NCBI GenBank assembly: GCA_903847205.1
Contig: CAINDA010000023.1
Coordinates: 1-33,896 of the forward strand
Length of the DNA: 33,896 bases
Direction of reading: 5' to 3'
Source of the DNA: an uncultured Bacteroidota bacterium
GTDB taxonomy: Bacteria; Bacteroidota; Bacteroidia; 2-12-FULL-35-15
Part shown: positions 14,701 through 33,896 of the stretch, piece by piece
Layout: each line of letters begins with the position of its first letter
How positions within the stretch are numbered: position 1 is the first letter of the stretch
Notes under the pieces: model-generated
The model's input: only the letters and a program-made list of their open reading frames with translations
The model's database searches: none
Told to the model about the DNA's origin: nothing
Translations under genes and position numbers: made by a program

Positions 14701-17700
14701 GACCGACAGCATGAATAACTTCAGTGCCTCCTGCTAATGTAGCATCGGCACAACCTATGTTTGTTCCGCTGCATGCACCGCTGCGTAAATCAACCACCGG
14801 ATTAAAATTAACTGAGCCCACAACTGTAATATCATGTGTTGCTGCAGTTGCAGTGAATTTATACCATACATCATCATCAGCTGTACCTGTTAAACCGTTG
14901 CAGGTAATTGCTGGTATTGACTGTGTTGCACTGGCAGTATTGCCTGTAACAGCACCACCGCAGGATGCTCCGTAAACCGTTAAAGAAATTGCGCCTGCAC
15001 AGTCATCATTAGCCGGCACCGGCGGAGCAGGTGTTGTAACGCAAATAGTAAACGTCGTTGTTGCAGGCACTGTGCTTCCGTATGAATAAACCCTTACAAA
15101 ATATGTAGTACCGACAGTAAGTCCTGTGGCACGTATAATTTCTGTTCCGCCGTTTCCAGTTGAATCAGCACAATTAACATTTGTTCCATTACAAGAACCT
15201 GTGCGTAAATCAACAACAGCATCAAAACTTGCTGAACCGACAACAGTAATATTATGTTTGGCCGATGTTGCAACAAAACTATACCATATATCATCATCTG
15301 CAGTTCCTGTAAAGCCATTGCAAGTTAATGAAGACAGTGATTGAGTTGCACCTGTAACATCACCTGTTACTGCTCCGCCGCATGTTGTTCCGTAAACTGT
15401 TAAAGGAGCTGCTCCAGTACAATTATCATTTGCAGGAGGAGGCGCAGTAGGAGTAGTTACGCAAATTGTAAATGTAGTTGTTGAAGGAATTGTACTGCCA
15501 TAAGAATAAACCCTTACATAATAAGTACTGCCTATTGTAAGGCCTGTTGCATTCAAAACTTCAGTACCGCCCATTCCGGTTGAATCGGCACAGTTAATAT
15601 TTGTTCCATTGCAGGCACCTGAACGTAAATCCACAACAGCATCGAAATTTGCAGAACCAACAACAGTTATGTTGTGAGTAGCAGCAGTTGCTGTAAATTG
15701 ATACCAAACATCATCGTCTGCAGTACCAGTTAAACCATTACAAAGTAAAGCAGGAATAGATTGTGTTGCACTGGCAGTATTTCCTGTAACAGTTCCACCG
15801 CACGAAACACCATAAACTGTTAAAGAAACTGCGCCAGAACAGTCATCATTGGCAGGCGTTGGAGGTGCTGGAGTAGTAACACAAATTGTAAATGTAGTGG
15901 TTGCGGGAACTGTGCTGTAGTAATCATACACTCTTACATAATAGGTAGTGCCGGCAGTTAATCCCGTGGCAGTGATAACTTCCGTTCCTCCATAACCATT
16001 TGCATCAGCACACATTAAATTTGTGCCGTTGCAAGAGCCTGTCCGTAAATCAACAACAGCATCAAAACTTGCTGAACCAGCAACTGTAATAATGTGTGAT
16101 GAACCAGTAGCAACAAAACTGTACCATACATCGTCATCGGCAGTTCCGGTACATGGTGTAACAGCAACTCCAGAAGAAGTTGCTCCGATAACATTTCCTG
16201 TAACAGCTCCGCCGCAAGAAACACCATAAACAGTTAAAGGAACTGCGCCGGAACAATTATCATTAGCGGGAGGAGGAGTAGTTATACAAATTGTAAATGT
16301 AGTGGTAGCAGGAACTGTGCTGCCGAAACTGTAAACTCTAACATAATATGTATTTCCTATCGTAAGGGTTGTAGAATTGATTACTTCAGTCCCGCCATTT
16401 GTAGTAGCATCGGCACAGTCGATATTAGTGCCGCTGCAAGAACCGCTGCGAAGATCAACCACTGCATCAAGACTCGCTGATCCAACAACAGTTATTGTAT
16501 GGGAAGTTGAAGTTGCAACAAAACTATACCAAACATCATTAGCTGCTGCACTTGAAAAACTACTGCAGGTAATTGCTGGTATGGACTGTGTTGCACTGGC
16601 AACATCGCCGGTTACAGCTCCACCGCAGGCAGCACCGTAAACTGTTAAAACTCCTGCCCCTGCACACTCATCGTTTGCTGGTGTTGGAGGAACAGGCGTT
16701 GTAACACAAATTGTAAAAGTTGTTGTAGCCGGGACTGTGCTGCCCCATGAATATACACGGACATAATATGTAGTACCAATTGTAAGACCTGCGGCATGAA
16801 TAACTTCTGTGCCGCCGCTTGCAGTTGCATCAGCACACATCATGTTTGTACCATTGCAGGTGCCTGATCGTAAATCAACAACTGCATCGAAACTTGCTGA
16901 CCCAACAACAGTAATATCATGAGCAATAGCAGTTGCAGTAAAGCTATACCAAACATCATCATCAGCTGTACCTGCGCAAGTTGCAGCGAGTGACTGTGTT
17001 GCACTTGCAACATTACCGCTTGTTGCACCGCCGCAAGTGGCTCCATAAACAGTTAAAGAGGTTGCCCCGGAACAATTATCATTAACAGGAGCTGGTGTTG
17101 TAATACAAATTGTAAACGTTGGAGTTGCAGGGGCAGTGCTTCCATAGCTGTAAATCCTGACAAAATAAGTTGTCCCGGCTGTCAGACCTGTTGCATTTAT
17201 TACTTCTGTGCCACCTGCAGTAGTTGCATCCGCACAGCTTACATTTGTACCTGAACAAGAACCTGATCTTAAATCAACAACTGCATCAAAACTTGCTGCT
17301 CCCACAACAGTAATGTTGTGAGAAGATGAAGTTGCTATAAAGCTGTACCAAATATCATTAGCGGCAGTGCTGGTAAAATTACCACAGCTGATTGCAGCGA
17401 CTGACTGTGTTGCACCTGTAACATTACCAGTAACTGCGGCTCCGCATGCAGCGCCATAAACAGTTAATGGAACTGCTCCAGCGCATTCGTCATTAGCCGG
17501 AGCAGACGGAACCGGGGTTGTTACACAAATTGAAAAAGTTGTAGTTGCTGGAATAGAACTTCCAAAAGAATATACCCTTACATAATAAGTTGTTCCAATT
17601 GTAAGTCCTGTTGCATTTATTACTTCTGTTCCGCCGTTTGCTGCTGCATTGGCACACATCATATTTGTGCCGTTGCATGAGCCAGAGCGAAGATCAACTA

Positions 17701-19600
17701 CTGCATCAAAACTTGCAGAACCAATAACAGTAATATCATGTGCTGCTGCTGTTGCAGTAAATTTATACCAAACATCATCATCGGCAGTACCGGCACATGT
17801 TGCGGCTAAAGATTGTGTTGCTCCGGCAGTATTGCCAGTTACAGCACCTCCGCAGGATGCGCCATAAACAGTTAATAAAGAAGCACCGGAACAATTATCA
17901 TTTATAGGTGCTGGAGTGGTAACGCATATAGTAAATGTTGTAGTTGCTGGAACAGAACTGCCCCAAGAATAAACTCTTACATAATATGTTGTTCCTGCAG
18001 TAAGGCCGGTGGCATTTAATACCTCAGTACCACCGCTTCCTGTGACATCAGAACAAGTTATATTTGTTCCGTTGCAAGCTCCTGAACGAAGATCTACAAC
18101 TGCATCAAAACTGGCAGATCCAACAACAGTTATATTTTGAGCTGCTGCAGCTGCAACAAAACTATACCAAACATCATCATCTGCTGTTCCTGCACAGGTT
18201 GCAGCTAATGACTGTGTTGCGCCTGCAGTATTTCCGGTAATAGTACCTCCGCAGGATGATCCGTAAACAGTTAAAGGTACCGCCCCGGCACAATCATCAT
18301 TAACTGGACCAGGAGTAGTAACGCAAATTGTAAAAGTAGTAGTAGCAGGGATTGTACTTCCCCATGAATATACTCTTACATAATATGTACTGCCTACTGT
18401 AAGGCCGGTTGCTGTAATAACTTCGGTACCACCGTTTGCAGTTGCATCAGCACACATCATATTTGTACCGCTGCAAGCTCCTGAACGCAGATCTACTACT
18501 GCATCAAAACTTGCTGAACCAGCAACAGTAATAATATGTGAAGCTGCGGTGGCAGTGAATTTATACCAGACATCATCATCAGCTGTGCCGGCACATGTTG
18601 CTGCCAAAGATAATGTTGCTCCGGCTGTATTACCTGTTACAGCAGCGCCGCATGAAGGGCCGTAAACAGTTAAAGAAACTGCGCCTGAACAATTATCATT
18701 TGCAGGAGCAGGAGTAGTAACGCATATAGTGAATGTTGTTGTTGAAGGCATTGTACCCCAATAATGATATACTCTGACAAAATAAGTACTTCCGACAGTT
18801 AGTCCAGTCTCATTAATAACTTCAGTCCCGCCAGGTCCGGTAGCATCAGCACAGATTATATTTGTTCCATTGCATGAACCTGAACGTAAATCAACAACTG
18901 CATCAAAATTAGCCGAACCAACAACAGTAATAGTTTGAGCTGCTGCTGTTGCTACAAAGCTGTACCAAACATCGGCGCTTGCTGTACCTGTACAAGGCGC
19001 TGCAACAATGGACTGGGTGGCACCAGCAACGTTTCCGGTAACGGCTCCACCGCATGTATTTCCATAAACAATAAGAGCAGCTGCCCCCGAACAATTATCG
19101 TTGGCGGGAGCAGGTGTAGTAACGCAGATAGTAAATGTAGTTGTTGCCGGAACTGTACTTCCCCAGGCATATACCCTTACATAATAAGTTGTACCCACTG
19201 TAAGACCAACAGCCGTTATTACTTCTGTTCCTCCGCTTGTAGTTGCATCGGCACAATCTATATTAGTACCGCAGGCGCCATTTTGCAATTCAACAACCGC
19301 ATCAAAACTTGCCGACCCAACAACAGTAATAATCTGTGAAGCCGCCACTGCGGTAAACTTGTACCACACATCTTTAGCAGTGCTGCTTGTAGTGCTGTTA
19401 CAAATTAATGGGGCGACAGACTGTGTTGCACCAGCAACATCACCAGTAACTGCAGTACCGCAGGAAGCACCATTAACCGTTAAACCTAATGCATTACCGC
19501 AATAATCGTTTGCCGGCTGTGCAAAAACAGAACCAGCACTTGCAAGAAGTATTGCAAGAATAAAAAGAAAATTTTTCGTTGAGGGTAATTTTTTTTTCAT
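11762..19600 (-). CDS. Giant T9SS-exported protein with 17 PPC-like repeats
   Basis: A 2612-aa protein. Residues 1-27 form a signal peptide ending AGSVFAQ. Seventeen tandem modules of about 125-140 aa follow. Each opens with P-x-N-D-x-C-(S/A)-G-A, then LTVYG, VTG...GATQS, DVWY(S/K)F, ITVVGSASFDAVVDLRSG, GGTEV and TTYYVRVY, and closes TFTICVTTP. The fold signals resemble the bacterial pre-peptidase C-terminal (PPC) domain. Two Ig-like modules follow (about residues 2370-2510; SICAGSSTTLTASGASSYSW, then NYQWYLDGVLIPGAN). The last 90 or so residues are a T9SS type A sorting domain (RPNPFTTSAIIEI...DLLGRKV...GMYFYKL). It should be exported by SecYEG and the type IX system and displayed or released at the surface, probably as an adhesin. 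No enzyme domain is visible. Confidence 0.92.
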   Translation of the reverse strand: MKKKLPSTKNFLFILAILLASAGSVFAQPANDYCGNALGLTVNGASCGTAVTGDVAGATQSVAPLICNSTTSSTAKDVWYKFTAVAASQIITVVGSASFDAVVELQNGACGTNIDCADATTSGGTEVITAVGLTVGTTYYVRVYAWGSTVPATTTFTICVTTPAPANDNCSGAAALIVYGNTCGGAVTGNVAGATQSIVAAPCTGTASADVWYSFVATAAAQTITVVGSANFDAVVDLRSGSCNGTNIICADATGPGGTEVINETGLTVGSTYFVRVYHYWGTMPSTTTFTICVTTPAPANDNCSGAVSLTVYGPSCGAAVTGNTAGATLSLAATCAGTADDDVWYKFTATAASHIITVAGSASFDAVVDLRSGACSGTNMMCADATANGGTEVITATGLTVGSTYYVRVYSWGSTIPATTTFTICVTTPGPVNDDCAGAVPLTVYGSSCGGTITGNTAGATQSLAATCAGTADDDVWYSFVAAAAAQNITVVGSASFDAVVDLRSGACNGTNITCSDVTGSGGTEVLNATGLTAGTTYYVRVYSWGSSVPATTTFTICVTTPAPINDNCSGASLLTVYGASCGGAVTGNTAGATQSLAATCAGTADDDVWYKFTATAAAHDITVIGSASFDAVVDLRSGSCNGTNMMCANAAANGGTEVINATGLTIGTTYYVRVYSFGSSIPATTTFSICVTTPVPSAPANDECAGAVPLTVYGAACGAAVTGNVTGATQSVAAISCGNFTSTAANDIWYSFIATSSSHNITVVGAASFDAVVDLRSGSCSGTNVSCADATTAGGTEVINATGLTAGTTYFVRIYSYGSTAPATPTFTICITTPAPVNDNCSGATSLTVYGATCGGATSGNVASATQSLAATCAGTADDDVWYSFTATAIAHDITVVGSASFDAVVDLRSGTCNGTNMMCADATASGGTEVIHAAGLTIGTTYYVRVYSWGSTVPATTTFTICVTTPVPPTPANDECAGAGVLTVYGAACGGAVTGDVASATQSIPAITCSSFSSAAANDVWYSFVATSTSHTITVVGSASLDAVVDLRSGSCSGTNIDCADATTNGGTEVINSTTLTIGNTYYVRVYSFGSTVPATTTFTICITTPPPANDNCSGAVPLTVYGVSCGGAVTGNVIGATSSGVAVTPCTGTADDDVWYSFVATGSSHIITVAGSASFDAVVDLRTGSCNGTNLMCADANGYGGTEVITATGLTAGTTYYVRVYDYYSTVPATTTFTICVTTPAPPTPANDDCSGAVSLTVYGVSCGGTVTGNTASATQSIPALLCNGLTGTADDDVWYQFTATAATHNITVVGSANFDAVVDLRSGACNGTNINCADSTGMGGTEVLNATGLTIGSTYYVRVYSYGSTIPSTTTFTICVTTPTAPPPANDNCTGAAPLTVYGTTCGGAVTGDVTGATQSLSSLTCNGFTGTADDDIWYSFVATSAKHNITVVGSASFDAVVDLRTGSCNGTNVNCADSTGNGGTEIIRATGLTVGTTYFVRVYSYGSTVPATTTFTICVTTPAPPVPANDDCAGAISLTVYGASCGGAVTGNTASATQSIPAITCNGLTGTADDDVWYKFTATAATHDITVVGSVNFNPVVDLRSGACSGTNIGCADATLAGGTEVIHAVGLTVGSTYYVRVYDFGNTVPSTTAFTICVTTPTTSAPANDNCSGAVSLTVYGVACGAAVTGDVAGATQSLPAILCNSSTSTSANDVWYSFVATSATHIVTVVGSTSFNAVIDLRSGACPGTNVNCSDAALAGGTEVLTASGLTIGNTYLVRVYNNGSSVPATTTFTICVTTPTPPVPANDDCSGAISLTVYGATCGGTVTGNTASATQSLPAITCNGLTGTADDDVWYSFVATAASHDITVVGSTNFNAVVDLRSGACPGVNIGCADATLAGGTEVIHAVGLTIGSTYFVRVYDFGSTIPLTTVFTICVTTPSSAVPPNDDCSAAVSLTVYGASCGGAVTGDISGATQSAAPITCNGLTGTIANDVWYSFTATAVSHNITVVGSSGFDAVVDLRSGICPTGTNIDCGNITTAGGTEVINAAGLTIGTTYFVRVYNFGSTVPSTTTFTICITTPSAPAPANDNCSGATALTVYGVTCGGAVTGNVTGATQSLPAISCNGTTGTADDDVWYSFVATAAAHDITVVGSAGFNPVIDLRSGACTGTNINCADATAMGGTEVINASGLTIGSTYFVRVYDYGSTVPSTTTFTICITTPGPPPAAPANDECSGAVSLTVYGAVCGGTVTGDVAGATQSLPAILCNNSTSSMSNDVWYSFVATATTHTITVAGSAGFDAVIDLRSGVCPGANINCSDASFGGVAEVLNASNLTIGSTYFVRVYNHGSSLPSTTIFSICVTTPCIAPNTTVNPSAASICAGSSTTLTASGASSYSWSSAVGLNTTTGAAVTANPTTTTTYTVTGTTNGCDGTQVITVTVVPTPTPTITQVGFLLTSSTAPNYQWYLDGVLIPGANSQNWTAVQNGNYTVGTTNGVCSELSAPFPIVTIGISKLADNTTNTVTIRPNPFTTSAIIEIKGNIGNSDVVGIEIFDLLGRKVKNIQFAPNQQVSIQNGLEIKIERDDMPCGMYFYKLTNKNEIIGGGKFSIQ
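12505..19520 (-). repeat. Tandem 400-430-bp coding repeats (17 copies)
   Basis: The DNA encoding the PPC-like modules repeats about every 400-430 bp. The motif TAAACAGTTAA (reverse complement of the LTVYG codons) recurs near 12868, 13288, 13718 and on through 19068. Copies differ at many third positions, so the array is old enough to be assembled reliably, but some neighbours are closer than others, suggesting internal duplication. Open frames on the other strand here are by-products of the repeat. Confidence 0.9.
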
Positions 19601-23503: not shown

Positions 23504-25687
23504 TTAAAAAACCTGTGCTATAATTGAACTTGAAACAAAGTAAGCTGTTGGTGTTCCTCCAGAAGTTACCTTGTATTTAGCGGTAAAGGTTGTATTTCCT
23601 AGAACATTTACTAAATAGGAGGCGCTGATTGAGAGAGGCTGTCCCGAAGAATTATCACATAACCCGCCTACTGAATAAGAATCACTTGCGAACTGTGTCA
23701 ACCCTCCTATTTCATCAAAGCTCATATAAGCGCCTTTCGAAGGGGAAGTATAAACAGAAATTGTGAGGGTGATTAGAACTTTGTGTGCTCCAATTGCGGA
23801 GATAGCTAACGTTGCGGCACTTCCTGTTGCAGGCGAAGCATAAACCGCTGATGTTGTTGTAAGAGTTGCTGAACTTGAACCACTTGATATTACATCACCT
23901 GCCGGCTGCCAGGATAAATTACCTGAGCCGTCGGTTTGAAGAGAAGAACCGCTTGTACCATCTGCAGCTGGCAGAACATAAGCAACATTTGCAGAGTTTG
24001 CTGCTGCCTGAAAACTTGTAAAAAAACCGCTGGACGCATTATAAAATTTCAACATCCCTGTTGCTGCAGAAGGTGTGCCCAATTGCGCCGCTCCGGCAAC
24101 ATGAAGTAATGAGCCGGGACTCATTGTTCCAATACCGACATTACCGCCAGTGGGCTGTAAACCCATATCACCATTACTATAAACCGACATTCTCGGCACC
24201 AAAAAACCGCCGCGAAAAACTGTTATATCAAGCATACTTTCATTGTTGGTAGTTGCACTTATATTAAAAGCCGTTCCCTCGTGTGTGCCGGTATTAAGGT
24301 ATAATGCTCTTGTAACGGCATTAGTGCCTGTGAGAATATCCAATTTACAACTGGGTGTCTGAGTACCAATGCCGACATTGCCATTTGGAAAAAAAGCACT
24401 AGCCGCATCCCATGCCCAGCCTAAAACCTGGTTAGGAGCCGAAATAGTATTAGCATATAACCCCGCGGCATTTCCTGCATCGTTGCCGAAAATGGCAAAG
24501 TGGCTGTGTAAGCTGTTTTTAGTTAAATCAATACCCACATGATCTGTTGCGGCATTTGCATTTGCAATGTTAATATTAGCAATATCGGTATTGGAAGTTT
24601 GGATATCAAGCATAGAGGCAGGAGTTATTGTTCCGATACCAACCATGCCGTTTTGGTCAATACGCATTCTTTCTGAACCATTTTGAAATGTATTAGGAGT
24701 TGTCATGAATTTTAAATAGGATCCATTAGCAGTGCCGGTGAACGTTTCGGATGCAGCCGCCACAATTTCTGTCTGATCATTTGTATTAAAACCTGTGCCA
24801 TATCCTCTGAATTTGAGACTTCCGATTTCATCACCCGCATGAATAGCTGCTGGTGCGCTTTCTGTTCCCCTTGCTTTTCTCAGCCAAATATGTGAATCTG
24901 CAAATGGATTATTATTATATTCCGTTCCTGCAATTCCTGACAAAAGAATTACAGATGTGTCAACTACTTCAAATATTGAATGAGGGGCAGCTGTTCCAAT
25001 ACCGACATTACCGCCTGCCTGCACTCTCATTTTTTCCATCCCGCTGGTTTTAAAAACCAAATCCTGAGGATCTGTTGTTCCAATAAAATTTGTTGATAAA
25101 TTTGTACCTGCATTGCCTAAGAGCGACCATGCATTTAAAGCACCATCGGCACCTGTTGCACCTGTAAGACCTGTTGTTCCAGCTGCACCAGTTATTCCTG
25201 AAGCCCCGGTTACACCCGTTACTCCGGTTACACCGGTTGCTCCTGTAACACCTGCCGCTCCTATCAGCGCAACACCGGAGGTTTTTGCATATAATGCATA
25301 AGGCACACTCATCATTTGTGAAGTTCCTATAGAAATATAATTACTCCCTCCTGCAGTATCTATTTTTACTTCTAAAAATTTATCCCCGAATGCCCATTGA
25401 ATATTGGCGAAGGAGCTCGTCTGATTAATACCCATGCCAATTTTAAGAGTAAACAAACCGTATATATTGGTGGTGTCAAGATGCTCCTCTTGAAAAAGAG
25501 AAATGCCGCCAGAATTTTTTATATTAAGCTGCACTTTTATGCGCTTGTTCGCAAGTACCTGGCCGGAATTATTCCTGGCAACAGCCTGATAATTGATGCC
25601 TTCGGGAGGTGCGAACTGGGCAAAGGAAAGTAAATTGAACAGCATCAGTGTTAAAGTACTTATTAGAAAATATAGTTTTTTCATCAT
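23504..25687 (-). CDS. Secreted collagen-like protein, paralogue 2
   Basis: A 727-aa protein with a signal peptide (SFAQ at about residue 24) and the same N-terminal domain ([12 protein letters not shown] to [14 protein letters not shown]). It has 13 collagen-type triplets (residues 143-181) and then an unusually long region with at least five GNVGIGT-type fibre motifs (for example GNVGIGTAAP, MVGIGTITP, GNVGIGTQTP, GNVGIGTMSP). The last 130 or so residues, after SGNLSWQPAGDV, form a separate beta-rich domain (ISAIGAHKVLITLTISVY), perhaps a binding head. Each fibre motif sits where phage tail-fibre and S74 stalk proteins have trimeric beta segments, so a trimer is likely. Confidence 0.88.
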   Translation of the reverse strand: MMKKLYFLISTLTLMLFNLLSFAQFAPPEGINYQAVARNNSGQVLANKRIKVQLNIKNSGGISLFQEEHLDTTNIYGLFTLKIGMGINQTSSFANIQWAFGDKFLEVKIDTAGGSNYISIGTSQMMSVPYALYAKTSGVALIGAAGVTGATGVTGVTGVTGASGITGAAGTTGLTGATGADGALNAWSLLGNAGTNLSTNFIGTTDPQDLVFKTSGMEKMRVQAGGNVGIGTAAPHSIFEVVDTSVILLSGIAGTEYNNNPFADSHIWLRKARGTESAPAAIHAGDEIGSLKFRGYGTGFNTNDQTEIVAAASETFTGTANGSYLKFMTTPNTFQNGSERMRIDQNGMVGIGTITPASMLDIQTSNTDIANINIANANAATDHVGIDLTKNSLHSHFAIFGNDAGNAAGLYANTISAPNQVLGWAWDAASAFFPNGNVGIGTQTPSCKLDILTGTNAVTRALYLNTGTHEGTAFNISATTNNESMLDITVFRGGFLVPRMSVYSNGDMGLQPTGGNVGIGTMSPGSLLHVAGAAQLGTPSAATGMLKFYNASSGFFTSFQAAANSANVAYVLPAADGTSGSSLQTDGSGNLSWQPAGDVISSGSSSATLTTTSAVYASPATGSAATLAISAIGAHKVLITLTISVYTSPSKGAYMSFDEIGGLTQFASDSYSVGGLCDNSSGQPLSISASYLVNVLGNTTFTAKYKVTSGGTPTAYFVSSSIIAQVF

Positions 25688-25764
25688 TTTGAGGTCAACA
25701 TTATTAAACCTGAATAGGCAGTAATAATAGCTTTATAAACGTGCTCAATAAAAGCCAGAATAAT

Positions 25765-27486
25765 TTACTGCGTTTCTATTATTTGGTAATTATATTTATA
25801 GGTAAACGTGCTTATGGCAGTGCTAAACCAAACAGTAAAAGTGCTGACTGTACTCGATACATATACATTTGTTATATTGTTAGCAGCAAGCAAATTTGCA
25901 GGTGTAAGAACTACTATTGGCGGAACGAAGTAACTTTTATTAAAAGTAATTACAACATTGCCGGCAACACCTGTGGCAGTTGGTGTTATAGTAATATTTC
26001 CGGCCACATCAGTAGCATTTGATAAAGTGTAAGTAGAATTTGCAGCGACAGCGACAGGCGGCGTCGTCTGCTGGCTTTGCAGATGTCCGTCTTTAATAGC
26101 AAGTCTCGCGTCTGCAGCTGGTGATGTTGTGCCGATGCCAATATTACCAATATGGTCAATAGTCATGCGTGTGACAGCGCCAACTGTATTGAAATTATTA
26201 GTAGTAGCAAAATACATTTTAGTTCCATAATTTCCAGATCCTTGTACATATATTCCAGCCTGAACAGTAGTGCGGTAACTTGATAGGAAGTGATCAGGGG
26301 TGCCAAAACTTATCCCCATCATATTCCCATCAACGTTAGTGTTCGGGACGAGATGAATTGATCCGTAGGCAGCTAAACCCGGGGTAACAGAATCCGCAGC
26401 AGCATTATAGTTCAATTGTAATCTGCTTAAAGGATTTGCAGTTCCAATCCCAAAATATCCAGAAGTTTGTTTCATTCTCATTCGTTCAATATTATTTGTG
26501 CCGAAAACCAGATCTTTCGAATCAGTGGTACCCATCCAGTTTTCTAAAGCACCAATTATTTGGCTGCCGTAAAATGTTGGGGGAACCGGACCGGTAATCC
26601 CTGCATTACCAGTCAATGTCCAGTGAGTTCCTAAATCGGCGCCGGTTGCACCTGTAAATCCAAACGAACCTGTTGCGCCGGTTATTCCAATATTTCCAGT
26701 ACTTCCTGTTGAACCTGTTGCCCCTGTAAAGCCCATGGAACCAGTGAAGCCCGTAAATCCAGTTGATCCTATTGCACCAGCTGCACCAGTAGATCCGGTA
26801 AATCCAATTGATCCTGTAGAACCTGTTTCCCCCATTACACCAGCAGCGCCTGAAGAACCCATTGCGCCCGTTGTACCTGTTGTACCAATATTTCCGGCCA
26901 GACCGGTACTTCCTGTTACTCCTAAAAGCCCTGTTATTCCAATGGAACCAGCAGCTCCTGTGCTGCCCGTTGAACCATTGCTTCCGGCAGCTCCTGTTAC
27001 GCCAGTTGTACCTGTTGCTCCTGTTGTCCCTATTAAGCCGGTGCTGCCAGGAGAACCTGTCAATGACGTACCCGCTGTTTTTGCATATAAGGCATACGGC
27101 ACACTCATCATTTGGGTTGTACCAATAATTATATAAGTACTGCCATTGCCTGTATCAATTGCAACTTCCAGATATTTATTGCCGGCTCCCCAGGGGATTG
27201 CTAAGAATGGAATACCAGTCTGGCTTGAACCCATGCCGATTTTCAGGGTAAATAAGCCGTATTTATTGGTAGTATCTGTATGTTGTTCCTGGAAAATTAC
27301 CGGCCCATTTATCAGCGAATCTCTTATGCTGAAGCGGACCATTATATGCCTTCCCGCAAGCGCCTGCCCCGCATTGTTTCTAGCAACAGCCTGATAATTT
27401 ATGCCTTCGGGAGGCGCCTGTGCAAAGGATGATGCAATGATCAGGAATAATGAAAATATATTTAATGAAAAAAATATTTTTTTCAT
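25765..27486 (-). CDS. Secreted collagen-like protein, paralogue 3
   Basis: A 573-aa protein with signal peptide [20 protein letters not shown] and N-terminal domain nearly identical to paralogue 4. It has 47 uninterrupted G-x-y triplets (residues 144-284, y mostly Thr), then fibre-type motifs (IGTTDSKD-like, [16 protein letters not shown]). The C-terminal domain of about 100 aa ([18 protein letters not shown]...YNYQIIETQ) differs from the other paralogues. Thr-rich Gly-x-Thr triplets are typical of bacterial collagen-like proteins and can be glycosylated. The upstream DNA is also duplicated from or to paralogue 4, showing recent gene duplication followed by exchange of the tip. Confidence 0.9.
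26635..27057 (-). repeat. Collagen-like triplet-coding repeat (47 triplets)
   Basis: A run of 9-nt-periodic codons for Gly-x-Thr/Ala inside paralogue 3. On the plus strand it reads as CCTGTT/CCAGTT-type blocks and creates long spurious proline/valine-rich open frames. Copy number can change by slippage without breaking the frame. Confidence 0.93.
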
Positions 27487-27660
27487 GATTCTTATCTAGA
27501 TGTTGTAAAAAATTGATGCCCCTTATCTGAGAGCTGCTTATTCACAGCCAATTCAGCCGTTAAAGTACGAAATAAATTTAAACAATTTTTTGGGTCACCT
27601 GAATTTCAGAGGAAATGTATAAATTCACGAATATATTTAATCGCTAAAACCCAACAAACA
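27487..27660. repeat. Duplicated upstream region, copy 1
   Basis: The DNA before paralogue 3 closely matches that before paralogue 4 (29594-29762). Shared blocks include GAGAGCTGCTTATTCACAGC, CAATTCAGC(C/T)GTTAAAGTACG, GAGGAAATGTAT and CGCTAAAA. It probably carries the promoter and leader of the gene; a strict TAnnTTTG match is not evident. Confidence 0.8.
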
Positions 27661-27682
27661 AGAGTGGCCTGGAAGTCTGATA

Positions 27683-29593
27683 TTATTTTTTATTCAGTTC
27701 CTCTAATTTCTTCATCAGCAAATCTATTTGTTTTTGCTGCACCGCATTCTCGGCTTTCAATTTTTCAATATCATTTTTTGTGCTTTCTGCATTTGAAGAA
27801 GAAGAGGATGCATCCATTTTTGTTTTTAAGTCTTTGATTATTTCACGCTGTTTTTGGTTCTGCTCATTCAATTCTTTAATAGAATTAATTAAAATATAAG
27901 TAATAGCATTGGGATCAAATTCCAATATATTTTCAGTTGACAGGCTGTCTTTGGGATCCATCCGCATTTTCACTTCTTTAATTGTGTAAGGCAGCACCTT
28001 TTGTATTTGCTGTGCAACTATGCCTACATAAGTTTCTTTGCTATTGATTCCAGCCTTGCCGTTGTACTGAAAAGTAACAGGATTAATCTGCAGTAATTTT
28101 GCAAGGCCGTCGTTAAACGGTATTATATTTTGTTTTAATCTTTCATCTGAAAACACGGCCCAAGTACCTCCACCCAATTTATCTGCGGTACCGTTTACGC
28201 TCAATACAGCAGTTGGAATTGCTGTGCCGATACCCACCTTACCGGCGGTGGTTACTCTAACTTTTTCAGTATTATAAGTCCGGATTGTAATATCGTGGTT
28301 TGATTGGGTGCCTACAAATGGCAGACCTGCAGTACTCCCGAAAAGGTAGGTGGCAATACCATCTCTTACTACCAAATATGCATCTCCGGTTTTTGCTAAT
28401 TGCAATAGTTCATTCGCATTAAATTGGGTTGAAGGATTAGGCCCAATGGTTAAAAGGTTTTGAGGAGAATTTGTTCCAATACCCACAAAGCCTCCTGAAC
28501 CCACCCGCATCCGTTCAAGATTATTAGAAGCGAGAACAAAATCTTTAGTATCAGTTGTACCAATAAAGTTATTATTGGCAGTAACTCCGATTGCACTTGT
28601 TGATGGTGCAGTTCCTCCATTACCAATCAGAAGCCAGCCGTTTGTTGCTCCTGTTGCTCCCGTTGCCCCTGTTGTACCAATTGCTCCTGTAGAACCGGTA
28701 TCACCAGTTGAGCCGGTGCTGCCAGTTATACCGGATGCTCCAATTGTACCTGTTGAACCCGTAGTTCCTGTTATTCCTTGTGAACCTGTTGAGCCGGTTA
28801 TACCTGCTGCTCCTGTTGCGCCAATTGCACCTGTTGACCCTGTTGACCCTGTTGCGCCTGTTGATCCTGTTATTCCAATTGAACCTGTTGAGCCGGTTGT
28901 TCCTGTTGAGCCGGTTGTTCCTGTTGTTCCGACTGAACCGGTAGAACCTGAGGAGCCGGTTGATCCGGTTAATCCTGAAGGCCCGGTTGTTCCAATACTG
29001 CCTGTATTTCCCGTATCTCCTGTGCTGCCGGTTATTCCTGGAGAGCCGGTATCTCCTGTGCTGCCAGTAAAACCATTGCTTCCGGCAGCTCCTATCTGGC
29101 CGGTGATCCCTATCGTGCCTGCAGCCCCGGTTGCTCCTGTTAAACCTGTGCTTCCCGGAAGCCCTGTTAATGCCGTACCCGATGTTTTTGCATAGAGGGC
29201 ATAAGGCACACTCATCATTTGACTTGTACCGAGTATAACATAATTATTGCCGCTGCCTGTATCAATTGCAACTTCTAAATATTTATTGCCGGATCCCCAG
29301 GGGATGGCAGAGAAAGGAATTCCTGTCTGGTTTGATCCCATGCCTATTTTTAGTGTAAATAAGCCGTATTTGTTGGTGGTATCTGTATGCTGCTCCTGAA
29401 AAATTACCGGCCCATTTATCAGCGAATCTCTTATGCTGAAGCGAACCATTATATGTCTGCCTGCAATTACCTGCCCTGCATTGCTTCTGGCGATAGCCTG
29501 ATAGTTTATACCCTCGGGAGGAGCCTGCGCATAGGATGATGCAATGATCAGGAATAATGAAAATATATTTAATGAAAAAAATATTTTTTTCAT
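27683..29593 (-). CDS. Secreted collagen-like protein with S74 chaperone tail, paralogue 4
   Basis: A 636-aa protein. Signal peptide to about residue 23; shared N-terminal domain (residues 24-140); 58 uninterrupted G-x-T-type triplets (144-317); fibre motifs ([24 protein letters not shown]). From about residue 482 there is a peptidase S74 (endosialidase chaperone) domain: [17 protein letters not shown] and [15 protein letters not shown] coiled coil of about 65 residues with a poly-Ser break closes the protein. S74 domains drive trimerisation of fibre proteins and cut themselves off before the Ser of the SDxRLK-type motif. Here the Ser, Asp and Arg-Leu-Lys are intact, so release of the tail is likely. 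It is the most upstream member of the four-gene minus-strand cluster. Confidence 0.93.
28643..29164 (-). repeat. Collagen-like triplet-coding repeat (58 triplets)
   Basis: The longest triplet tract of the cluster, coding residues 144-317 of paralogue 4 without interruption. Sub-blocks such as GST-GTT-GST recur, consistent with growth by in-frame duplication. The opposite strand is open in a proline/valine-rich frame that is not a gene. Confidence 0.93.
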
Positions 29594-29762: not shown

Positions 29763-30211
29763 TTTTAAATAAATGTCGAAGAAAAAATCTTTAAATCCTT
29801 TTTTTTGCCGGAATGCTATTTAAGTTTTTGAATGATAACCTGCACATACCGTTCAGGTTCACCTGAACTCACCGAGAAACCTAAATCGAACAATCGGCAA
29901 AGGGGTTCCCATAAAGAAATACAAATTAAAAAGTGAAACCTTTTTTATGGTTTTATCTCATCATTATTTGCTAATCAAATACCAATTTGAAGTGTAAAAA
30001 TTGGTAACGATGATAGAAGGGCTTCAAGCAAATTTACTGTAATTTATGAAGTTTTTAATTCCGGGTAAATATATTTTTATGAACATTAGGTACCTCAATT
30101 GTCCATATTTTATTTCTAATTCCCCATTTCATAATACACTCAGATAATAGGAAATAGAAAACTTTTGATTGGGAGAGTGGAAGTTATTTCACGAAGTGTT
30201 TATACTGTTCC
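29763..30211. other. Gene-free stretch with an 18-bp palindrome
   Basis: A 449-bp AT-rich stretch between the paralogue 4 leader and the 332-bp mini-element. No coding frame is convincing. The only structure seen is GTTCAGGT-TC-ACCTGAAC at 29851-29868, a perfect 8-bp dyad with a 2-nt centre that has the shape of an operator. No regulator gene is adjacent. Confidence 0.55.
29851..29868. promoter_or_regulatory. Possible operator-like dyad
   Basis: Perfect palindrome GTTCAGGTTCACCTGAAC, about 260 bp upstream of the collagen-like gene start. Its symmetry suits a dimeric DNA-binding protein, but it is single-copy here and could be chance. Confidence 0.3.
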
Positions 30212-30242
30212 CGCCCCTGTTGGTGTTTCAGGAGCGCAGCCG

Positions 30243-30266
30243 TTGCAGGTGTTATTTCACCTGCAA
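30243..30266 (-). repeat. REP-like hairpin, left type (mini-element)
   Basis: Arms TTGCAGGTG and CACCTGCAA around loop TTATTT on the plus strand, that is loop AAATAA when read on the minus strand. It is an exact 24-nt match to 32920-32943. Confidence 0.93.
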
Positions 30267-30415
30267 TCCCACAGCCATTTACATCACATCCAGCAATGGC
30301 CAAAGGGCGAAAAAATAACACATGCAATGGCAATTCCTCTGCTAATTCATTAACACCAACAAGGGCGAAAAGGGCGAAACCATAACTTACAAATGTAGAT
30401 AATATGCCTACGCTT

Positions 30416-30439
30416 TTGCAGGTGAAATAACACCTGCAA
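30416..30439 (+). repeat. REP-like hairpin, right type (mini-element)
   Basis: Arms TTGCAGGTG and CACCTGCAA around AAATAA, preceded by TATGCCTACGCT and followed by GGCAACT, as at 33522-33545. It is an inverted partner of the hairpin at 30243. Confidence 0.93.
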
Positions 30440-30624
30440 AGGCAACTGCTGTGCTGACATTAACACCAACAAAGCGAAAAACATAGAATTGGTTTTGCAA
30501 TCAATAGCATCTCCATTGTTAATAATTAACACCAACAAGGGCGAACACTACAGTTTAGCTATTGATTTTGGTTATTCGTTTTAAATATTTTTCTTTACTC
30601 CAAACATTTTTCCAACGGGGGGCG

Positions 30625-31209
30625 CTAGACAATTTTTATTTTTAATTTTTCTACTAAATCACCAATTTTTTTTTCTCCTTCAACTTCTATTTGAATTATC
30701 TCATCGATAAATATTGTTCCAATTATACCAGCAGGTCTGGCGGCATCCGGTTCATATGGAAACCCTTGTCTAAACCTTGTTAAATACTCTGAATTACAAT
30801 GAGGGCAATTGAAATAAATAAATGTTAAAATAGGTATTGAAAAAATATCAGCATCAATTATTGAAAAGGACTTGCTCGTTAAGAACTTATAAGGGCTTTT
30901 GCTAGTCTGATATACTTTTGTTTTTGGAAACAATACCTCCAATATATACAGAAATTTCTCATCAAATATTCTGCTAAAAACAGATCCCGTTCTAGTGAAG
31001 TTCTGATATTTATTTTCACCAAATCCTACATTTTTCGAACACTTCTTGCAATTAAATGAAGCAAACCAGCTGCAATTATATTTGAATTCTAAAGGAAGCG
31101 TTTGGTTGGAGAATGAACCATTGTTTTGTTTTTCAACAATTGTTTTTATAATTGGTTCTCCTAGTAAAGTAAAGGTAATCGAATTGATTTCACCTGTTTT
31201 CTTTATCAT
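30625..31209 (-). CDS. Hypothetical protein with two CxxC zinc-ribbon-like knuckles
   Basis: A 194-aa protein with no signal peptide. Two Cys pairs, FNCKKCSKN (about residues 53-61) and FNCPHCNSEYL (about 133-143), are 80 residues apart and could together bind one zinc ion. The remainder is rich in Phe, Ile and Lys. No family is recognised. It lies downstream of two immunity-like genes on the same strand, 80 bp after the last, so it may be part of the same accessory island and could itself be an immunity or cargo protein. That is inference from position only. Confidence 0.7.
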   Translation of the reverse strand: MIKKTGEINSITFTLLGEPIIKTIVEKQNNGSFSNQTLPLEFKYNCSWFASFNCKKCSKNVGFGENKYQNFTRTGSVFSRIFDEKFLYILEVLFPKTKVYQTSKSPYKFLTSKSFSIIDADIFSIPILTFIYFNCPHCNSEYLTRFRQGFPYEPDAARPAGIIGTIFIDEIIQIEVEGEKKIGDLVEKLKIKIV

Positions 31210-31289
31210 TTGATTAGTTATTTAACTGGTATAATTACTTATCCTTTGGTTTATTCTTGATTGTTTTTATTATTTATTGTCTCTGATTT

Positions 31290-31967
31290 TTATATCGATT
31301 CTGCCATTTTATTTAATTCTTCTGTACTATGACTGTCTAAAAACTCAATGACCTTCATACACTTTTCATACATAAAATATCCTTGAAATTTTGTCTCCAC
31401 TTCATTCTTGTAATAATCTCTTAACTCATAGTATTTTGGATTGCGGTTCAGTTTTGCGGTTATTAAACCTTTTATAATACGCCACCCTAAATCATCACAA
31501 TAAACGACTTTCTCTGTTGGATGTTCATTCAGTAATTTATCAATCGAATCAATTGTGTTGTATTTTACAAAAAATGCAGTGAGGTGATCATTATAGAACT
31601 TTTTAAAAATCATAAACCAATCTCTAATATCTATTTCAGTTTGAATTTTATACTGATAATTTATATCATTAAAATATATTCTCGTTGAAGTAGAAATAGT
31701 CCCACCTCCGCCAATAGATTTTATATAATCCATTTCTAAAATGTAGCATAAAACTTTATCAATTGCATCTACGCCAACATAAGCGTAAATGCCTGTATAA
31801 AAAACAGGTTCATATTTGGCAATTCCAAACCCAATTTTTCTATAACCTATTGACTCTGATACAAAAAAATCGCATCCTTGATTACCATATTTGCTTTTAT
31901 ACCCCAACGGCTTTAAAAAGCTTTCAAACTCCCTTTTTAGTTCTTTTTTTACTTCACTATAATTCAT
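31290..31967 (-). CDS. Immunity-like protein, paralogue A
   Basis: A 225-aa cytoplasmic protein, closely related along its length to the product of the next gene upstream (32053-32709). Shared blocks are MNYSE.KKELK.EFESFLK at the start, VDAIDK/TEKV.Y.DDLG.RIIKGL in the middle, and YYKNEVETKFQGYFMY.KCMKVIEFLD near the end. The N-terminal pattern (helix, then LGYKSK...QGCDF) recalls DUF4304-type proteins, but I cannot confirm it. Tandem paralogues preceded by short toxin tails are typical of immunity-gene arrays in polymorphic toxin loci. A stop-interrupted toxin-tail remnant ends 3 nt before its ATG. Confidence 0.75.
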   Translation of the reverse strand: MNYSEVKKELKREFESFLKPLGYKSKYGNQGCDFFVSESIGYRKIGFGIAKYEPVFYTGIYAYVGVDAIDKVLCYILEMDYIKSIGGGGTISTSTRIYFNDINYQYKIQTEIDIRDWFMIFKKFYNDHLTAFFVKYNTIDSIDKLLNEHPTEKVVYCDDLGWRIIKGLITAKLNRNPKYYELRDYYKNEVETKFQGYFMYEKCMKVIEFLDSHSTEELNKMAESI

Positions 31968-31970
31968 TGA

Positions 31971-32045
31971 TTATTTGATTCTTGGTCTTGTTATATATCG
32001 CGAAAAATCAGTAGTGGAACTATTTACCCAATATTATACAACTGG
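31971..32045 (-). pseudogene. Remnant of toxin C-terminal tail
   Basis: Between the two immunity-like genes the minus strand reads YWVNSSTTDFSRYITRPRIK and stop, matching the end of the 56-aa frame at 32713-32883 (FWVNSSTTDFTQYLVRPRIH, stop). An in-frame TAA just before Tyr (32034-32036), in place of the Glu codon, and the loss of similarity further upstream show it is a truncated remnant. Its stop is 3 nt before the next ATG, exactly as in the upstream copy. Confidence 0.8.
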
Positions 32046-32052
32046 CAATGAT

Positions 32053-32709
32053 TTAATCATTCGTAATTTTATTTAATTCTTCTAAACTATGATTATCTAA
32101 AAACTCAATTACCTTCATACACTTGGCATACATAAAATAACCCTGGAATTTGGTTTCTACTTCGTTTTTATAATAATCTCGTAGTTCATCGTACTTCAGA
32201 TTATCGTTTAGTTTAGCAACTACTAAGCCTTTGATTATTCTTGAACCTAAATCATCAAGGTAAATTACTTTCTCTGTTGGGTTATCATTTAGTAATTTAT
32301 CAATTGCATCTACTGAATTATACTTTTCAAAAAATGGAACCGCATATTCTTCATAAAATTTTCTTATGATTTTGCCCCATTCTTTAATGTCATATTTGGT
32401 TTTAATTTTGTAACGATAGTTTAATTCGTTGAAGTAATTTGATGTTCCGGAGCCAATAGCAAAACCAACATCTTCATGTAAAATATGTTTTTGAATTTTT
32501 TCAATAGGTATTATATTGATTCCAATAACACAACCCGTATTGAATTCATCAATATAGTCAGCAACTCCATAGCTTATACTTAATAATTGAGATTCATTTT
32601 CTTTGGAAAACGAACAACCCTGTGGGTCACTTTTTGACTTGTAACCTAACGATTTTAAAAAGCTTTCAAACTCTTTTTTTAATTCCTTTTTTGCTTCTGA
32701 ATAGTTCAT
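32053..32709 (-). CDS. Immunity-like protein, paralogue B
   Basis: A 218-aa paralogue of the 31290-31967 product. The N-terminus MNYSEAKKELKKEFESFLKSLGYKSK is nearly identical; the middle (residues about 30-110) has diverged most, and the C-terminal third is again highly conserved. Diversification of a central face with conserved ends fits immunity proteins that track variable toxins. The start codons of the two paralogues are 742 bp apart, the apparent duplication period. It directly follows, with a 3-nt gap, the toxin-tail frame at 32713-32883, so the two were probably once translated from one message. Confidence 0.77.
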   Translation of the reverse strand: MNYSEAKKELKKEFESFLKSLGYKSKSDPQGCSFSKENESQLLSISYGVADYIDEFNTGCVIGINIIPIEKIQKHILHEDVGFAIGSGTSNYFNELNYRYKIKTKYDIKEWGKIIRKFYEEYAVPFFEKYNSVDAIDKLLNDNPTEKVIYLDDLGSRIIKGLVVAKLNDNLKYDELRDYYKNEVETKFQGYFMYAKCMKVIEFLDNHSLEELNKITND

Positions 32710-32712
32710 TGT

Positions 32713-32883
32713 TTAATGAATTCGTGGTCTTACTAAATATTGTGTAAAATCTGTTGTTGAACTGTTAACCCAAAATTCTACACCACTTTCTAATTGGATT
32801 TCTATTTTAGGAGCATTGTTTGCAAATGGTCCAAATGCACTTGTAGCCTGTCCACCCCTCATTTCCACTTTTGTAATATTCAT
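32713..32883 (-). pseudogene. C-terminal tail of a probable polymorphic toxin, 5' end lost
   Basis: A 56-aa frame (ATG 32883; MNITKVEMRGGQATSAFGPF... to RPRIH) on the minus strand. The frame stays open upstream through the end repeat of the RAYT unit (reading NTNKGGN) until a TAA inside the hairpin at 32929-32931. It therefore looks like the surviving end of a longer gene rather than a complete one. The tail is repeated, degraded, before the second immunity-like gene. Toxin domains of Rhs/contact-dependent and T6SS/T9SS effectors end just before their immunity gene in this way. The toxic activity cannot be assigned from the tail. A genuine small protein remains possible. Confidence 0.65.
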
Positions 32884-32919
32884 ATTCCCGCCCTTGTTGG
32901 TGTTCCTGCAGCGCCGCCA

Positions 32920-32943
32920 TTGCAGGTGTTATTTCACCTGCAA
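32920..32943 (-). repeat. REP-like hairpin, left flank of RAYT
   Basis: Nine-base arms TTGCAGGTG/CACCTGCAA with loop TTATTT on the plus strand, 12 bp beyond the RAYT stop codon. It is preceded by GCGCCGCCA and is identical to the hairpin at 30243-30266. Confidence 0.94.
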
Positions 32944-32955
32944 TCCCAAAACCAT

Positions 32956-33489
32956 TTACATCACATCTATATAATGCACTAAAAAATCAAAATTATGATT
33001 TTCTAATTTATAAAATTGTGCGCTTGAATATAAATAGTCTTCCGCACAAGATGCCAATAGCCACTTTTCATGCAACGGATTATTATGTATGTAATTCAGT
33101 TTCTGCAAAAGTGTTTTCGTATTGTCAAGTTCAAACCAGTGAGGATTTCTTTCCCATAATTGATATCTCCGGTCTTTTGCATTTACAACAATATCATCAA
33201 GCAGTACGGAATCTTTTTTTATTAAATTGAATTTTATCTGCTGTGCAGTATATTTTAAAAAATCTCTTTGAACATCTGCATTTTTATGAGGTGCCAATAC
33301 TTGCCAAATTAAATGAATATGATTTGGCATAATTACAAAAGCCAATACTTTTACCCGCTTATTAGCACTCAAAAACTGAAGACTATTTATAATAATATTT
33401 TTGTGTTCGTCATCCTCCAATAGCTTTATCCATTTAAGATTGGTGGCTGTGAAAAAATAAACATCAGAAGTTTTTCTTATTGAAACCAT
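32956..33489 (-). CDS. REP-associated tyrosine transposase (RAYT, Y1/IS200-like)
   Basis: A 177-aa Y1_Tnp (HUH) protein. The HUH metal site is His57-Ile-His59 in VIMPNHIHLIW. The probable nucleophile is Tyr80 in FLKYTAQQI. The C-terminal half has the RAYT pattern LWERNPHWFELDN, LNYIHNNPLHEKW and YLYSSAQFY. These enzymes cut single-stranded REP hairpins and are thought to spread them; they are usually present once per genome and not flanked by classical IS ends. All catalytic residues are intact and the length is normal. ATG 33489 is the start; the leader (CTTACAAATGTTGATATTATGCC on the plus strand) is shared with the mini-element. The last codons also occur in the mini-element. Confidence 0.93.
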   Translation of the reverse strand: MVSIRKTSDVYFFTATNLKWIKLLEDDEHKNIIINSLQFLSANKRVKVLAFVIMPNHIHLIWQVLAPHKNADVQRDFLKYTAQQIKFNLIKKDSVLLDDIVVNAKDRRYQLWERNPHWFELDNTKTLLQKLNYIHNNPLHEKWLLASCAEDYLYSSAQFYKLENHNFDFLVHYIDVM

Positions 33490-33521
33490 AGCTTACAAAT
33501 GTTGATATTATGCCTACGCTT

Positions 33522-33545
33522 TTGCAGGTGAAATAACACCTGCAA
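33522..33545 (+). repeat. REP-like hairpin, right flank of RAYT
   Basis: Arms TTGCAGGTG/CACCTGCAA with loop AAATAA, 32 bp upstream of the RAYT start codon and inverted relative to the copy at 32920. It is preceded by TATGCCTACGCT, as in the copies at 30416 and 33727. Confidence 0.94.
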
Positions 33546-33634
33546 TGGCAACTCTTCAGCTGATCATTAACACCAACAAAGGCAAAATAGCATCTCCATT
33601 GTTAATCATTAACACCAACAAGGGCGAAAATAAA

Positions 33635-33668
33635 AATCCTGAATCCAATTTTCTTCGGATTCAGGATT
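33635..33668. repeat. 12-bp stem-loop beside the RAYT unit
   Basis: AATCCTGAATCC (33635-33646) pairs with GGATTCAGGATT (33657-33668) around a 10-nt loop AATTTTCTTC. No T run follows on the plus strand, so a classical terminator is unlikely. It begins 8 bp outside the right end of the RAYT unit and has no match to the REP hairpins. Confidence 0.75.
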
Positions 33669-33726
33669 CGGATATCAATCAATTATAATAACGAAGGCGC
33701 AGATTGTGGGTATTATGCCTACGCAT

Positions 33727-33750
33727 TTGCAGGTGAAATAACACCTGCAA
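33727..33750 (+). repeat. Solitary REP-like hairpin
   Basis: An exact copy of the 24-nt hairpin with the right-type context (TATTATGCCTACGC before, GGCAA after) but with no end repeat or partner within the window. The rest of 33490-33896 holds no gene that I can support. Confidence 0.92.
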
Positions 33751-33896
33751 GGGCAAAATGAATGTGATGTTGTCAGCTGCTTCAATGAATTTTAAACGTG
33801 TGATGAACCTTTGGAAACAAGGACTCAAATTTTTTATTGAAAATATATGTTTGTTATTAGCTTGCTATTTTAGAAGTTTATTTACCAAAAAGTTTA

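Follow-up and report, generated by a model that had tools for sequence, protein, structure and literature searches.

The stretch of DNA analysed here (the window; 33,896 nt) constitutes contig 23 in the 72-contig, 5.49 Mb genome of an uncultured Bacteroidota bacterium. Near its right-hand end it carries a unit built around a gene for a REP-associated tyrosine transposase (RAYT) and, to the left of that unit, a short element with the same ends and without the gene (the mini-element), both read on the minus strand (Table 1). Two tandem paralogous ORFs lie between them (31290–31967 and 32053–32709; 74% DNA identity over 372 columns), for neither of which a Pfam match was found. Further to the left, three adjoining collagen-repeat proteins with partial mutual DNA similarity, one of them with a Peptidase_S74 chaperone domain, are encoded at 23504–29593, and 11762–19600 encodes a protein of 2612 aa in which a T9SS-associated galactose-binding-like domain was matched in 17 stretches and which has a secretion tail. 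The last 141 bases of the window (33756–33896) are 100% identical to C62:1–141, and 33781–33896 are 100% identical to the end of C72; this is another multi-copy repeat, located at contig ends.

Table 1. Features of the mini-element and of the RAYT unit, in window coordinates (minus strand, RAYT sense).
Feature	Position	Strand	Remarks
Mini-element (internally deleted RAYT unit)	30208–30545	-	two blocks homologous to 32885–32967 and 33482–33628
Outer motif, RAYT-3' end	30212–30229	-	reads CGCCCCTGTTGGTG on the plus strand; matches RAYT unit 32889–32906
3' REP hairpin, TTGCAGGTG-loop-CACCTGCAA	30243–30266	-	hairpin pattern
RAYT CDS 3'-end remnant (D-V-M-stop)	30279–30290	-	12/12 identical to 32956–32967
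Interior, RAYT coding sequence not found	30291–30375	-	30313–30370 is a second 5' half-REP with outer motif
RAYT CDS 5'-end remnant (ATGGTTTC)	30376–30383	-	8/8 identical to 33482–33489
Retained RAYT leader (5' untranslated)	30384–30415	-	93.9% identity to the window RAYT across hairpin, leader and first codons
5' REP hairpin	30416–30439	-	hairpin pattern
Composite 5' end	30460–30542	-	inner copy of outer motif 30460–30476, outermost copy 30526–30542
Parent-type RAYT unit	32885–33628	-	inverted REPs 32920–32943 and 33522–33545, with outer motifs
RAYT gene, 177 aa	32956–33489	-	motifs NHIH, WQ, YIHNNP
Solo 5' REP end, 52 bp	33705–33756	-	92.3% to 33500–33551; also G000:C72:119451–119500

The RAYT narrowly passed the NCBIfam model NF047646 (REP-associated tyrosine transposase; 81.2 bits, cut-off 80) and fell under the cut-off of Pfam Y1_Tnp (20.1 bits, cut-off 23), and its best match in a sequence search of the PDB was weak (TnpA-REP 4er8, E 0.065). 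Both NHIH (the HUH motif) and YIHNNP (with the catalytic tyrosine) are present in the translation, from which activity is predicted. The gene is enclosed by two inverted REP hairpins of the form TTGCAGGTG-loop-CACCTGCAA with opposite loops, and inverted copies of CGCCCTTGTTGGTGTT lie beyond both hairpins. The right edge of the unit was placed at 33626/33627, because a paralogue without the unit (C72:119451–119578) is 97% identical to window 33627–33754 and then diverges where the window enters the unit. In the own genome, one full-length copy of this RAYT was found, together with truncated RAYT starts on contig 55, which are tandem remnants stopping after about codon 53 and about codon 18.

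Self-comparison of the region 29900–33896 aligned the mini-element with the RAYT unit in two blocks, one at 90.4% identity over 83 bp (30208–30290 against 32885–32967, E 4e-28), and the other at 80.1% over 171 columns (30376–30545 against 33482–33628, E 3e-43), where identity is lowered by about 24 additional bp in the mini-element. Both hairpins and both outer motifs are common to the two, as the original prediction had stated; the element it had bounded at 30212 and 30543 stands, with its limits corrected to about 30208 and 30545. The remnants of the RAYT start and stop codons that it had described are identical to the gene at every base, and these extensions into the coding sequence go beyond chance (about 1e-7 for the 12 nt at the 3' end and about 2e-5 for the 8 nt at the 5' end, at the base composition of the window). 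A second half-REP occupies part of the 85 bp that separate the remnants; it is 86.2% identical over 58 bp to the 5' REP half of the RAYT unit itself (30313–30370 against 33531–33587), and therefore no clean deletion took place; a deletion with an insertion, or template switching, is required. Of the internal deletion proposed originally, the derivation from the RAYT unit is upheld and the simple form of the event is not. On its minus strand the mini-element folds into one long hairpin (-59.2 kcal/mol, z -5.45), and none of 100 shuffled sequences was as stable.

The composite 5' end, a double outer motif with 'AATGGAGATGCTATT' in between, was found only in the mini-element and the window RAYT when the own genome was searched, and self-comparison detected no similarity between the two beyond the unit, on either flank. 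Since the composite end is present at both loci and the flanks are unrelated, copying concerned a unit rather than a segment of the chromosome. A local segmental duplication of the region followed by gene loss would find a precedent in the tandem paralogy of the two intervening ORFs; given flanks that lack similarity outside the unit, it was rejected as very improbable.

Over the 5' hairpin, leader and first codons, the mini-element matches the window RAYT at 93.9% identity and the two truncated RAYT starts of contig 55 at 94.0% and 89.7%, and the RAYT units of genus genomes G020, G014 and G034 and the G029 deletion derivative L204 at 64–75%. Identities of 89.7–94.0% within the own genome, against 64–75% in the genus, indicate that the mini-element most likely arose inside the lineage of its own genome. 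Its descent from the RAYT unit of this lineage appears well supported, because the remnants are in register with start and stop, the leader is close to that of the window RAYT, and the composite 5' end is shared. A second copy of the whole mini-element was not found in the own genome among the best 40 of 42 candidates (E up to 0.001). No empty site for the mini-element locus was present among the matches listed from the 36 genus genomes (best 8 candidates per genome), which comprised REPs, RAYTs, the window-end repeat, a collagen-like gene family, and one short weak match.

The DNA of the mini-element was then searched in 119 genomes (own included), 17 of which matched, 16 in the genus (own included) and one outside; RAYT relatives were present in 58 of the 119 (own included) and were mostly distant. 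All genomes compared are drafts, several related records are titled MAG, and some RAYT copies end at contig edges. Hairpins of the window's exact pattern occur in 8 of 36 genus genomes, and at the fetched loci of other genus genomes the hairpin loops are A-only or shorter. A nucleotide pattern for RAYT codons 12–18, allowing three mismatches, was discarded as too loose, with matches in all 36 genomes, and in many for controls of similar size.

From 100 fetched loci and the window end, 38 unique pairs of a 5' hairpin followed by a 3' hairpin were obtained, 8 around full-length genes and 30 small. Since the loci were picked by similarity to the mini-element or to RAYT, fractions among these pairs are not genome-wide rates. 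At least 8 nt of coding sequence are kept in 6 of the 30 small pairs (the window mini-element, G014 C320, G014 C156, G015 C3, G029 C156 and G029 C32), and the other 24 have no convincing coding sequence. On G015 C3 the mini-element retains the coding sequence from nt 453 onwards, with 95% identity to its own RAYT; G029 C156 retains it from nt 332 on (98%), and G029 C32 retains nt 1–141 (96%), its other half resembling the G029 REP pair L205. A seventh small pair, G020 C46, keeps the leader and ATGG only (80%), and four others (L300, L324, L341 and L342) match in the leader or 3' untranslated sequence only (E 7e-4 to 9e-7). The remaining small pairs gave nothing past weak matches, so that most small pairs are without a visible gene trace; mid-gene matches of several of them (e.g. 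L301, L304, L307; E 0.003–0.03) were counted as chance.

Two of the small pairs with coding sequence, on contigs C320 and C156 of G014, have a common junction, at which codon 19 is joined to the last eight codons and the stop; the RAYT match runs to CDS nt 57 (C320) or 55 (C156) and resumes at 506 or 505, and one base differs between the two in the codon preceding the junction. They are 87% alike over 345 columns, lose their likeness no more than about 10 bp from the outer motif at either end, and lie at different loci with unrelated flanks. Compared with the intact RAYT on G014 C189, the halves of C320 are 94% and 92% identical, and those of C156 85% and 94%. One junction at two unrelated loci indicates that such a deleted form is capable of being copied, and on the sequences copying of a deleted form appears much more likely here than two independent losses at one point. 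Recurrence of one breakpoint at several loci, to which the original prediction had looked, is thus seen in G014, and in the own genome no other copy was found, an outcome that the prediction itself had named as counting against it. In G015, a 3' RAYT fragment on C12 starts within a few bases of the point at which the C3 mini-element does and is without a 5' hairpin, which is suggestive only. An empty site for the G015 mini-element locus was not found among the matches listed from other genomes (best 8 candidates per genome), and its flanking genes match many genomes.

These relatives bear on three other accounts of the mini-element. The codon-end matches could be conserved regulatory DNA beside REPs, brought about by chance or functional convergence with no gene lost, and some small pairs do match RAYT units beside the hairpins in leader or 3' untranslated sequence alone; the matches of the mini-element, however, continue 12 and 8 nt into the coding sequence, beyond chance as calculated above, and the coding stretches retained in relatives are longer, at about 80 to about 200 nt, which leaves this account scarcely credible. 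The direction could also be the reverse, with a REPIN existing first and a transposase gene later inserted between its REPs to give a RAYT unit. Gene-less REPs are indeed common in the genus, but the remnants in the mini-element are the gene's start and stop ends in the correct register, and the longer coding stretches in G014, G015 and L142 (described below) make sense only as deletions; gene capture, which the G014 junction contradicts, was rejected and is considered highly unlikely.

The third account deserves more weight. A full RAYT unit may have moved to 30.2 kb and lost its gene there, in which case the mini-element decayed in place, never moved and is inert. This shares its derivation with the explanation preferred here and disputes mobility alone. 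It accords with the single copy of the form found in the own genome, with the extra half-REP debris inside it, and with the further truncated RAYT remnants on contig 55, and is opposed by the G014 pair, whose one junction at different loci with unrelated flanks indicates that deleted forms are copyable; it is held to be a real possibility, somewhat short of an even one. The explanation preferred is that the mini-element is a non-autonomous, internally deleted derivative of a Bacteroidota-type IS200/IS605-like RAYT unit, potentially mobile in trans, and this is considered quite probable.

A similar derivative was read outside these small pairs at L142 (JAFLBM010000017.1, a record titled Chitinophagales MAG), where the first approximately 40 codons are joined to the last approximately 17. 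This mini-element has different hairpins and lies upstream of a RAYT that is without internal stops in the stretch read, and the spacing of the start and end blocks found in that genome fits two full-length RAYTs and this one mini-element, with a short pair of hairpins on a different contig. The original prediction regarded such a lineage as rarely visible so plainly; its link between a REP pair and a RAYT is borne out, and given the derivatives in the genus and in this MAG, it is not confined to the window. A repeated block across a RAYT end was found at 11 of 80 named RAYT loci (L113, L115, L123, L126, L135, L142, L155, L167, L170, L172 and L177), several of which are tandem 3' ends, L142 alone having been read closely. 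Tandem or near-tandem RAYT 3' ends with downstream sequence lie beside RAYT genes at L115, L126, L135, L172 and L193, in several Bacteroidota records. At L203, L197, L199 and L217, in several genomes, tandem half-REPs stop in the hairpin loop and run directly into the next unit.

Full RAYT units were also compared within genomes. G004 has two contigs with the 5' side of a RAYT unit and two with the 3' side, all of which meet in one identical stretch of the RAYT gene. Identity between the 5' sides is 96.4% across 475 bp, as far as the hairpin foot; between the 3' sides it is 98.8% across 260 bp and ceases shortly after the outer motif. The genome has two near-identical RAYT units with different flanks, which look recently copied. 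G014 has two RAYT units with 89% identity to each other; a third 3' end there reaches 95%. RAYTs have been described as single-copy and not self-mobile (PMC3116915, Discussion; PMC8049555), a description that relatives G004 and G014 do not fit. For subclass 2.6 of the TnpA-REP proteins, the table of Quentin et al. (PMC6006769) gives 1.8 and 40.7, taken here as copies per genome and identity; with a value of 1.8, more than one RAYT per genome is therefore not new, and the near-identity of the units is the point.

On the best reading of the sequences, the RAYT unit is IS200/IS605-like, has atypical REPs and would repeatedly give rise to non-autonomous derivatives by internal deletion. The mobile unit would run from the outer motif CGCCCTTGTTGGTGTT through the 5' REP hairpin, leader, RAYT gene and 3' REP hairpin to the inverted outer motif, and an internal loss would take the gene and leave the hairpins, the leader and the extreme codons. 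The parts kept would include those that a Y1 (HUH) transposase is expected to need, and an intact RAYT might act in trans to move a gene-less remnant, a unit with active-site motifs being located 2.3 kb away. Cleavage of single-stranded DNA on the 5' or 3' side of the REP hairpin is published for related REP transposases (PMC8266576), and by analogy this RAYT would act on its atypical hairpins. In the mini-element, the loss would have involved, or preceded, the gain of the second half-REP, which terminates inside a hairpin loop. The simplest guess is that the template was switched at the hairpin while the DNA was being replicated or was transposing as a single strand; half-REPs broken off in the loop, found at L197, L199, L203 and L217 too, may represent jumps at hairpins.

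Deleted derivatives of this type are plausible intermediates towards REPINs. A further reading, put forward tentatively and with slightly less than even confidence, is that the RAYT unit of the genus is a still working IS which sheds deleted copies, and that codon-tagged mini-elements, leader-only pairs and solo REPs are successive stages in the origin of REPINs; if true, this would supply a step in that origin hitherto merely proposed. Where a derivative still has the first and last codons, its sequence connects the REP pair with the gene it came from, and the genus allows full and deleted units to be compared with leader-only pairs and solo REPs, in a setting where the RAYT itself seems to copy. 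Such shrunken copies show how a mobile gene may decay into small bacterial repeats.

MITEs arise from autonomous IS by internal deletion. Like them, the mini-element is short and non-coding and keeps its parent's two ends with the interior gone, here with an added half-REP. It differs from MITEs in having subterminal hairpins, a parent with a Y1 transposase, no expected target duplication and a low copy number, and multiple copies with the same junction were not found in the own genome.

Compared with the REPIN or REP doublet (Bertels and Rainey 2011, PMC3116915), the mini-element likewise has two inverted REPs, a short spacer (gap 149 bp) and a cognate RAYT nearby, and it differs in keeping the RAYT start and stop codons and in REPs without the GTAG foot. 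The hairpin feet, compared by eye, are GCCN-TTGCAGG; GTAG is found 5 nt 3' of the 5' hairpin in the mini-element and the window RAYT and is absent in both contig 55 copies. Unlike high-copy REPINs, the whole mini-element was found once in its own genome, where the exact hairpin pattern is present at 9 places. REPs and REPINs are common bacterial repeats whose origin from IS200-like elements was left open in the Discussion of PMC3116915, where REPs flanking such an element are given as 'one possibility' only, RAYT action in trans on REPINs is proposed, and deletions between REPs that leave singlets are mentioned.

The motifs of the window RAYT fit TnpA-REP subclass 2.6 (Quentin et al. 2018, PMC6006769; 179 aa, NH[LIV]H / WQ / YIH[QN]NP), a mostly Bacteroidetes subclass whose flanking secondary structures are described there as atypical and as recurring at other places in the genome; the main text of that paper does not use 'internal deletion', 'MITE' or 'non-autonomous'. 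RAYT genes with a nonsense mutation, frameshift or deletion have been reported in Pseudomonas and Stenotrophomonas (Nunvar et al. 2013, PMC3686654), and no mention was found there of deleted inter-REP units being copied or yielding REP pairs. In TIRtrons/TIRYT (PMC3733652) a RAYT-like gene lies within long inverted repeats, and some of these repeats make up families; no description of gene remnants between the repeats was found there. Among the open-access papers and abstracts consulted on RAYTs, REPINs and IS200 derivatives, none was seen to report REP pairs that retain the codon ends of a RAYT gene. RAYT deletions and MITEs were already known, and, set against that literature, the new part seems to be a visible series of derivatives within a RAYT/REP system.
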